From NCBI GenBank assembly GCA_027312225.1, contig DAICXK010000003.1, forward strand, positions 244 through 64,243: a stretch of 64,000 nt of DNA, given 5' to 3'. The notes under the pieces are model-generated. The model did not search any database, was not told the DNA's origin, and worked only from the letters and a program-made list of their open reading frames with translations. The position numbers and the translations under genes were made by a program. This document shows positions 45,166 through 47,485 of the stretch, piece by piece; the stretch's first letter is position 1, and every line of letters starts with the position of its first letter. The stretch is from Candidatus Saccharimonadota bacterium (lineage in GTDB: Bacteria; Patescibacteriota; Saccharimonadia; Saccharimonadales; Saccharimonadaceae).

Positions 45166-45555
45166 TCAGTGGTGCACGAACCGCGAATCATGCGCCTCGT
45201 CGGCCTCCTCGTCGGACTGCTTCGCCATCTTGCGCGTGTCGCGCTTGTAGCGCCAGGCCTGCAGCGAACGGGACCACGACTCGTGGAAGACCGCCGCGAT
45301 CAGCAGCAGCACGCCCGTGGCGCCGACCAGGCCCAGCACCGTCATGATGACGCTCGAACCCGCGACCAGTGCTGATGCCGTCACCGACATGTACGTCGCC
45401 AGCATCAGCGTGACGAACAGCAGGATGAGGGTGAGGCCGAGGTCCATCAGTCGTCGGCCGATCTTGCCATCCCGGATGGGGCGATAGGATCGGACGAAGG
45501 TGACGAGGGTTGCGAGGATGAGTGCCGCCAGGGCGGCGTAACCGAGATAAGTCAT
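45166..45555 (-). CDS. hypothetical multi-TM membrane protein, about 129 aa
   Basis: Start MTYLGYAALAALILA with GAAGGAG SD; several hydrophobic segments; monocistronic. Confidence 0.7.
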   Translation of the reverse strand: MTYLGYAALAALILATLVTFVRSYRPIRDGKIGRRLMDLGLTLILLFVTLMLATYMSVTASALVAGSSVIMTVLGLVGATGVLLLIAAVFHESWSRSLQAWRYKRDTRKMAKQSDEEADEAHDSRFVHH

Positions 45556-45737
45556 TTCTGACTCCTTCCGATGGGGTACACGTGCGACTGCACGATAGTA
45601 TATATTATACATAAGTTTATTTATTTTGTCAATGTTCTGTGATACACTACCTCTAATTCTGTCGAGCGGCGACGGATGTCGCTTGACCCACCACCACTCC
45701 GGAGTCGGAGCTTGAAAAGAAAGCAGGTGATAGCCAT

Positions 45738-46199
45738 ATGACTATCGAAGAAGGTGGACCGATGTCCGCCCGCGAAGAACGCTGGGACCGCATCGAGTTC
45801 ACGACAAGACAGCACGTGCCGTTCCCCAACGAACCCTTCCATCCGCGCAGCATCACCGCGAGGATACGAATCTGGCCGAGGCTGCCGTTCACGCAATCCG
45901 TCCGGCTCAGCCCGGTCGCATTCGTGCCTCACATCAGCGGCTTCGACATGATGGGGATCATCTCGATGATGGGCAGTATGAGCCCCTACCTCTACCTCGA
46001 CCCAGACCGACGTCTCGTGCGGAAGGTTCTGACAGCAAGAGGGTGCTACCGGTACGAGTACGTAACCGACCCATTCTCGATCACGGATGAGGACATCGCG
46101 CGTCTTGAGATCGGTATCCAAGGAAACAACGACCTCCTGGATGCCGAGTACGACAAGGCCCGCGACGCCATCCTGGCCGACCTCGGATACCCCACCTGA
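45738..46199 (+). CDS. hypothetical protein, 153 aa, monocistronic
   Basis: AGGTGAT SD before ATG 45738; GC-rich codons; hairpin shortly after stop. Confidence 0.7.
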   Translation: MTIEEGGPMSAREERWDRIEFTTRQHVPFPNEPFHPRSITARIRIWPRLPFTQSVRLSPVAFVPHISGFDMMGIISMMGSMSPYLYLDPDRRLVRKVLTARGCYRYEYVTDPFSITDEDIARLEIGIQGNNDLLDAEYDKARDAILADLGYPT

Positions 46200-46212
46200 C
46201 CCCTCTCAAGCT

Positions 46213-46243
46213 CCGAGCCCCGACCAACACGGTCGGGGCTCGG
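46213..46243 (+). terminator. GC-rich hairpin
   Basis: CCGAGCCCCGACC-aacac-GGTCGGGGCTCGG, perfect 13-bp stem 13 nt after the stop codon. Confidence 0.65.
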
Positions 46244-46261: not shown

Positions 46262-46299
46262 ATAAAAAACGGCCAGGTAAGGGTGGGCATCACCTGGCC
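46262..46299 (-). terminator. intrinsic terminator of the ncRNA candidate
   Basis: GGCCAGGT-gatgcccaccctt-ACCTGGCC then GTTTTTTATTT on minus strand. Confidence 0.85.
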
Positions 46300-46572
46300 G
46301 CATTTTACCCTTCAACCCACCCCAGACGAAGCACTCAAGACCCAAACTCCACGTAGGGTGGTGCCTGAAGATTCACTACTGAATAGTCGTCTTTGAACGG
46401 GACCTACTCTCGGGGGTCGAAAATAGGGGTTAAAGGGATTAGTATGCATGCAATGTTTTTTTGCGGCCGCGTGGAGGGTAGAATACGAGACCACCATTGC
46501 ATACAACCTAACATAATAGTTAGAATAGGGGGTATAAGGTGCGTTTGATTAACCTCGCTGATCAATCAATCG
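46262..46572 (-). ncRNA. candidate stand-alone structured ncRNA, family not recognised
   Basis: Minus-strand promoter TTGACA-17-TAATAT, series of hairpins (TTGAT/ATCAA, CTAAC/GTTAG, GTATGCAATG/CATTGC-atgc-ATAC, ATTCA/TGAAT, CCACCC/GGGTGG), terminator with T-run; no convincing ORF. Confidence 0.65.
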
Positions 46573-46578
46573 TTTCTT

Positions 46579-46607
46579 ATATTAGCACGTACTTGACTTT
46601 ATGTCAA
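46579..46607 (-). promoter_or_regulatory. near-consensus sigma70-like promoter TTGACA-17-TAATAT
   Basis: TTGACA (complement of 46602-46607), 17-nt spacer, TAATAT (complement of 46579-46584). Confidence 0.8.
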
Positions 46608-46627: not shown

Positions 46628-47485
46628 ATGAAAATCAATAGAGCTACCCCTGATAAGCATAAGTACCTCGCACCGTTGGTTCATATTGCACGCCCGCCTC
46701 AAACTGTCTTTTACAGTGGTGTGCTGCCCGAACAGCGTCGTCCAACTATCGCAATCGTAGGGACTCGTCGACCATCTCGGTACGGCCAAGAAGTCACCCA
46801 GATGTTTGCCACTGAACTCGCGAGGCAGGGGATTATTGTCGTCAGCGGGCTTGCACTCGGCGTTGACGCCATCGCCCACCGGGCGGCCCTCGAAGCCCGC
46901 GGCACAACAATTGCCGTCCTTGGCAACGGGCTACCGACCATCTATCCATCAAGTCACCGGCACCTTGCCCATGAGATTATTACGAATGGCGGCGCCCTCA
47001 TCAGTGAGTATGAACCCGAGACTCCTGCTCGCAACTACCGTTTTCTCGAGCGAAACCGCATTGTCAGCGGCATTGCCGACGCCATTATCATCACCGAAGC
47101 AGCCGCGCGTAGCGGTACTCTTAATACCACGGTGCATGCACTTGAACAGGGTAAAGAAGTGTTTGTCGTACCTGGAAATATTACAAGCCCGCTGAGTGCC
47201 GGATGTAACGCGCTCCTCCGCCAGGGCGCTACGCCCGCAATGCACGCCGACGACATTCTGAATGTCATCGCACCAGATATAACGACCACTCAGCCCCAGT
47301 TGCCCCTCGGTACAACTGTCGAAGAAACAACCATTATCCAGTTAATTCAATCGGGCATACGTGATGGCGACGAGCTACAGCGGGCAAGCGGCATCACCGC
47401 AAGCACCTTCTCGACCACGCTGACCATGCTCGAGCTTGCTGGCACAATCCGGTCACTTGGATCAAACCAGTGGACACTGCGCTAG
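46628..47485 (+). CDS. dprA: DNA processing protein DprA (start 46601 or 46628)
   Basis: IAIVGTRRPSRYGQEV, VSGLALGVDAIAHRAAL, AVLGNGLPTIYPSSHR, FLERNRIVSGIADAIIITEAAARSGTLNT, VPGNI. Confidence 0.95.
   Translation: MKINRATPDKHKYLAPLVHIARPPQTVFYSGVLPEQRRPTIAIVGTRRPSRYGQEVTQMFATELARQGIIVVSGLALGVDAIAHRAALEARGTTIAVLGNGLPTIYPSSHRHLAHEIITNGGALISEYEPETPARNYRFLERNRIVSGIADAIIITEAAARSGTLNTTVHALEQGKEVFVVPGNITSPLSAGCNALLRQGATPAMHADDILNVIAPDITTTQPQLPLGTTVEETTIIQLIQSGIRDGDELQRASGITASTFSTTLTMLELAGTIRSLGSNQWTLR

Follow-up and report, generated by a model that had tools for sequence, protein, structure and literature searches.

Nearly all sampled Saccharimonadales carry a non-coding RNA (ncRNA) with a conserved secondary structure, a sigma-70-type promoter and a terminator with an invariant loop. 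In the stretch of DNA analysed here (the window, 64,000 nucleotides from a Candidatus Saccharimonadota bacterium), this RNA is about 312 nt long and maps to the minus strand at 46573-46262, its start being inferred from the -10 box and its end from the U-tract. It is very likely that a stand-alone structured RNA gene both exists at this position and is conserved, its transcription being inferred from the promoter and the terminator only. The RNA is absent from Rfam 15 and was filed as a new family among the large structured stand-alone bacterial RNAs of unsettled function. The initial annotation, made from the sequence alone, had proposed a stand-alone structured ncRNA of an unrecognised family, and this claim held, as shown by the conservation and covariation of the RNA, the conservation of its promoter and terminator, and the lack of an Rfam match. 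Of the checks that it proposed, the Rfam search gave no hit, and the comparison of relatives showed that they conserve the RNA and covary.

The promoter (46607-46579, minus strand) consists of the -35 box TTGACA at 46607-46602, a 17-nt spacer, and a TG with the -10 box TAATAT at 46584-46579. A sigma-70-type promoter is found in front of 90/90 homologues, versus 2.6% of random 90-nt windows. At the other end, the terminator hairpin and its U-tract occupy 46300-46262 (minus strand), with a GC-rich stem of 11 bp (46300-46290/46280-46270) whose pairs covary, a 9-nt loop and then GTTTTTTATTT, ending at approximately 46262. The loop, UGCCCACCC (46289-46281), is invariant, being found in its exact form in all 90 homologues, which were located with the 5' model alone. 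This hairpin was overlooked by the terminator scan because the loop limit of the scan is 8 nt, while the actual loop has 9 nt. The near-consensus leftward promoter TTGACA-17-TAATAT and the GC-rich terminator hairpin about 310 nt downstream, both pointed out in the initial annotation, were thus upheld, with the correction that the stem has 11 bp and not 8 bp.

The predicted fold of the RNA is more stable than that of all 100 shuffled sequences (0/100 as stable, z = -5.6). Minimum-energy folding of this sequence alone gives a misleading 3' half, where the relatives instead support a long-range helix between 46437-46428 and 46317-46308. The homologous genes span 250-500 nt and are normally present in a single copy, and no open reading frame common to them was seen by eye, without a formal test of coding potential. 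When the whole window was compared with Rfam 15 at gathering cut-offs, only two tRNAs were retrieved. No family was found at its cut-off for the 501-bp locus of the ncRNA searched to E = 10, nor did any reach its cut-off for 12 homologous loci searched to E = 3. No description of this Saccharibacteria ncRNA was found in the open-access literature, a search that did not cover subscription papers, preprints or supplements.

The distribution of the RNA was evaluated in genomes that are mostly metagenome-assembled. With BLASTN against 60 relatives, the ncRNA was found in 40 of 61 genomes. Two covariance models were used for a wider sampling, R1 representing the 5' core (P2, P3 and their flanks) and R2 the region from P4 to the terminator; the calibration of both was short, which makes their E-values rough. 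R1 matches 197 of the 394 genomes of the class and 103 of 151 genera. The genera missed by R1 carry a diverged 5' half and an unchanged 3' half (loci L020, L021 and L161), and for this reason R2 was built on the region from P4 to the terminator. It matches 341/394 genomes of the class, 301/343 of the good genomes and 120/151 genera, usually with one match per genome. At least 350 of the 394 genomes of the class have a match to R1 or R2. Across the phylum, R1 matches 23 of 384 sampled genomes, all within the order Saccharimonadales, and this 5'-core model, the only one used at this level, has no match outside the order. Four weak matches to R2 (1e-7 to 4e-4) in other families of the class remain unconfirmed, and all the confirmed matches belong to Saccharimonadales. 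The exact 5' signature is present in 88 named records, almost all of which bear the label Saccharibacteria, Saccharimonadia or unspecified bacterium, and one of which bears that of Nomurabacteria. The latter record (L120, JAISBI010000013.1) carries the signature of the RNA and is likely a mislabelled Saccharibacterium.

The secondary structure was built by hand and scored for paired cells and for cells with double changes in A4, a set of 44 divergent short-type RNAs. In this set, 87.8% of the cells are paired, versus 78.8% when the letters of the 3' strands are dealt out and 34-49% when the partners are slid. The structure was partly derived from the A4 sequences, which favours the paired-cell score; the counts of double changes are more reliable in this respect. 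These compensatory cells number 287, versus 88 in the shuffled and 66-92 in the slid controls, and 44 pairs show double changes.

All the elements of the structure lie on the minus strand. The 5' hairpin P1 (46572-46542), CG-A-UUGAUUG...UAAUCAA-A-CG, has double changes in 8/9 pairs in A4, with 76% of its cells paired. It is followed by a conserved C-rich single strand, CACCUUAUACCCCCUAUU (46541-46524), whose replacement in g2 and g12 (L161 and L021), two diverged genera, indicates that it is dispensable in some lineages. Hairpin P2, CUAAC...GUUAG (46523-46508), has 97% of its cells paired and no double changes; its loop is lengthened by a variable stem in several relatives, and its strand GUUAG has a possible alternative partner in the CUAAU at 46442-46438. 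This CUAAU is located between P3 and P4 and is conserved, being CUAAY in relatives. The long hairpin P3 (46505-46445) has a stem formed by UGUAUGCAAUG (46505-46495) with CAUUGCAUGCA (46455-46445) and an upper stem, P3b (46487-46485/46472-46470). The P3 stem is a continuous helix of 11 bp supported by covariation, with double changes in 10/11 pairs and about 93% of the cells paired. The initial annotation had described a helix with a 4-nt bulge, which failed in this detail. The apical loop of P3, AUUCUACCCUCC (46484-46473), contains UACCCUCCA in 83/90 homologues and ACCUCCAC in the diverged genera.

The long-range helix P4 joins the 5' strand CCCUUUAACC (46437-46428) to the 3' strand GGUUGAAGGG (46317-46308), the latter being preceded and overlapped by the G-rich GGGGUGGG (46323-46316). 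In P4, 98.4% of the cells are paired and double changes are present. Other lineages have the strands CCCUCUAAC/GUUAGAGGG and CCUCUUGAC/GUCGAGAGG, and the changes that affect both strands include AUCC/GGAU, GUCC/GGAC, GACC/GGUC, CACC/GGUG and further variants. The domain enclosed by P4 (46427-46318) is variable and comes in two forms, a short one of 44-90 nt with P5 and P6, and a long one of about 100-175 nt, which is the one found in the window. Here, it contains the helices AGACGA/UCGUCU (46392-46387/46329-46324) and UCCC/GGGG (46402-46399/46323-46320). The former pairs in 31 of 44 long-type RNAs, and random reassignment of the 3' strands to the sequences gave a mean of 13.4 (maximum of 20). 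The latter was assigned by inspection.

A contact between two of the conserved elements can be envisaged, given that GGUGGG (or GGGUGG) is the complement of CCCACC (CCACCC). Among 63 non-redundant short-type RNAs, GGUGGG or GGGUGG is found only in P5 in 26, only beside P4 in 17 and at both sites in 20. It is missing from both sites in none of the 63, with approximately 7 expected (hypergeometric probability of 1.6e-5, uncorrected for relatedness). Exceptions occur in 6/65 long-type RNAs, four of which have GGUGUGGG. Since relatedness inflates the significance and these exceptions exist, the tertiary contact remains a hypothesis, in which the terminator loop UGCCCACCC may possibly dock on the GGUGGG of the same RNA.

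Targets for the conserved loops were also sought in other nucleic acids. The longest complements of the invariant loops in E. coli 16S and 23S rRNA are at chance level, and no rRNA match was found in the window's own assembly. The region 4-22 nt upstream of the candidate starts of 516 genes (from the window and the named loci of 5-8 kb) shows no enrichment of loop complements: GTGGAG occurs 0 times versus 2.5 expected, GGAGGG 0 versus 2.1 and GGGTGG once versus 2.4. The lack of complementarity to rRNA above chance, together with the lack of enrichment before starts, makes protein binding or tertiary contacts the likelier roles of the loops. The most frequent hexamer in these upstream regions is TATAAT, which precedes 64 genes, versus 28 for AAGGAG, and this dominance suggests that many of the mRNAs are leaderless.

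Two further resemblances were attributed to coincidence. When the ncRNA was compared with RNase P RNA, tmRNA and the two tRNAs of the window, a single 10-nt complement was obtained, between CACCCUUACC in the terminator hairpin and GGUAAGGGUG in RNase P RNA (G000:C21:26161-26170), with a shuffle P of 0.003 in 16 tests. This pairing was judged coincidental because the terminator stem would have to open partly and many relatives have CACCCCCUCU. In many long-type homologues (e.g., L181 and L187), the P3 stem reads GUUUUAGAGC...GCUCUAAAAC, and the ten letters of GUUUUAGAGC are identical to those with which the S. pyogenes Cas9 repeat begins. This likeness was also taken as coincidence, given that it concerns a stem sequence in an RNA without a Cas link.

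With respect to its surroundings, the ncRNA is flanked by a divergent dprA in 97 of 114 evaluable loci, and in the 17 others dprA was not detected there while the ncRNA is kept. Among 29 loci, the gene immediately downstream is in most cases convergent, and its identity varies. A 5' UTR leader or riboswitch would be expected to precede a co-directional gene family, and this does not agree with a downstream gene that is mostly convergent and variable. The persistence of the RNA without an adjoining dprA and the mostly convergent orientation of the genes downstream rule out both an mRNA leader, as the initial annotation had also argued, and an RNA specific to dprA. The body of the ncRNA does not overlap dprA, with the exception of the promoter region. 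In this regard, the start of dprA may be the ATG at 46628 and not that at 46601, a position at the -35 box of the ncRNA promoter, as many homologues begin at the position equivalent to the former.

In the window, a 153-aa plus-strand open reading frame (45738-46242) and a strong hairpin (46207-46242) separate the ncRNA from the minus-strand gene at 45166-45612. In the close relative L002, the counterpart of this gene starts just after the ncRNA, and therefore the block at 45738-46242 is possibly an insertion in the present genome. A perfect sigma-70 consensus promoter, TTGACA-17-TATAAT (45632-45604, minus strand), precedes a 148-aa minus-strand open reading frame.

Comparison with known RNA families did not provide an identity for this RNA. 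RNase P RNA and tmRNA were rejected, as in the initial annotation, given that the genome encodes its own copies elsewhere, the former (RF00010) at G000:C21:25986-26360 with 247.7 bits and the latter (RF00023) at G000:C21:29123-29519 with 97.2 bits; ARAGORN found no tmRNA in the window. The ncRNA resembles SRP RNA (RF00169) in that the latter is the core of a housekeeping RNP, but it has no match to RF00169, and the protein partner Ffh was not found, which led to the rejection of this identity. No SRP RNA was found in the window's own genome, and none was above threshold in 31 genomes of the order, where a single weak sub-threshold match (E of 0.012) occurred in another genome. The M domain of Ffh (PF02978) is present in 0/31 of these genomes, the window's own included, with 14/14 controls being positive. 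The SRP pathway thus seems likely to have been lost in Saccharimonadales, as far as these 31 genomes indicate; it has already been stated that SRP subunits are absent in many CPR bacteria (PMC8080830).

Closer parallels of kind are found among the large structured RNAs of bacteria. The raiA motif RNA, or ModT (RF03072), is also a stand-alone structured ncRNA of comparable size; it has several helices and contacts of pseudoknot type and is conserved in a wide group of bacteria (PMC11706538). However, the present RNA has no RF03072 match and has its own conserved loops and long-range helix. Most reports of ModT come from Bacillota and Actinomycetota, and both its abundance and its phenotype have been established. 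OLE, GOLLD and ROOL are likewise large structured bacterial RNAs for which the exact biochemical function is unsettled, OLE being the core of a membrane RNP (PMC9723947, PMC12265935, PMC12286853). The ncRNA differs from them in being smaller than OLE (about 600 nt) and near-universal in one order. In a scan of all Rfam models, it was not matched by those of OLE, raiA, GOLLD or ROOL.

The explanation that best accounts for these observations, and that is favoured only by a modest margin, is that of a constitutively transcribed, trans-acting RNA of housekeeping type, probably serving as the scaffold of an RNP. Transcription and abundance are inferred here from the promoter and the terminator alone, as there are no expression data. 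The order-wide presence, the single copy, the promoter, the strong structure and the unpaired C-rich loops for which no nucleic-acid target was found argue for a trans-acting housekeeping RNA that would most likely form the core of an RNP. According to this proposal, P1, P2, P3, the long-range P4 and the terminator hairpin would fold into a compact body, and its functional surfaces would be the single strands ACCUUAUACCCCC, CUACCCUCC (the P3 loop) and UGCCCACCC, all C-rich and invariant, to which a conserved protein would most likely bind, with UGCCCACCC possibly docking on GGUGGG within the same RNA. It would then be an RNP core similar to OLE or raiA/ModT in kind and not by descent. The role as a protein-binding scaffold could equally prove right or wrong, given that no protein partner is known and none linked to the ncRNA gene was found.

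Other explanations were weighed against this one. A trans antisense regulator would act on many mRNAs by pairing its C-rich loops with their G-rich ribosome-binding sites, in the manner of RNAs of the S. aureus RNAIII type. The three invariant C-rich loops speak for it, and the P3 loop has a CCUCC anti-Shine-Dalgarno core, which is ACCUCC in the diverged genera. Nonetheless, this is unlikely, given that candidate starts are not preceded by an enrichment of loop complements, that the upstream regions are dominated by the -10-like TATAAT of presumably leaderless mRNAs, and that a near-universal RNA of this size and with a long-range helix would be unusual among such regulators. A functional replacement of 6S RNA, which would bind the RNA polymerase holoenzyme and regulate transcription, is also unlikely. 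The ncRNA is a stand-alone, single-copy RNA of housekeeping type and could take the place of 6S in a genome where none was detected, but neither the genome nor the homologues match RF00013, a model that is itself weak and detects only 5/14 controls. The architecture also differs, since a closing stem that would join the two ends is missing, as is a central open-promoter-like bubble in a rod; the 5' end and the 3' end separately form P1 and the terminator hairpin, both of which covary, and 6S RNA has nothing that corresponds to several of the conserved loops. For this reason, the suggestion of a 6S-like RNA in the initial annotation is unsupported.

A new trans ribozyme or an aptamer, that is, a catalytic or ligand-binding RNA, would be compatible with the compact structure, the long-range helix, the invariant unpaired nucleotides and the candidate tertiary contact, but it is improbable, given that no link to a reaction or a metabolite exists and the RNA is not placed upstream of genes of a single pathway. 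Least likely of all is a cis element, in which case an antisense or a leader RNA would regulate either dprA or the gene downstream. It draws support from the frequent adjacency of the divergent dprA (97/114 loci) and from the minus-strand gene that begins soon after the end of the ncRNA in L002. This explanation is largely refuted by the 17 loci without a detected adjoining dprA, by the usually convergent and variable downstream gene, by the terminator that the RNA has of its own and by a body that is clear of dprA except in the promoter region.

Saccharibacteria live as ultrasmall epibionts and have reduced genomes, those sampled here being mostly of 0.5 to 1.5 Mb. The retention of this RNA in one copy in such minimal genomes, with loops kept nearly letter for letter, indicates that it likely has a basic role. 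A bolder reading, which we would not yet back over its negation, is that it is an unknown core RNA or RNP of Saccharibacteria, possibly essential and as general there as RNase P or tmRNA, in a lineage without recognisable SRP and 6S RNAs. If this were true, it would have an as yet undescribed type of activity, be it that of a scaffold, a polymerase regulator or a catalyst. Given that related cultured species can be transformed and have been studied by Tn-seq (PMC10633639), the essentiality and the partners of this RNA are open to direct testing.
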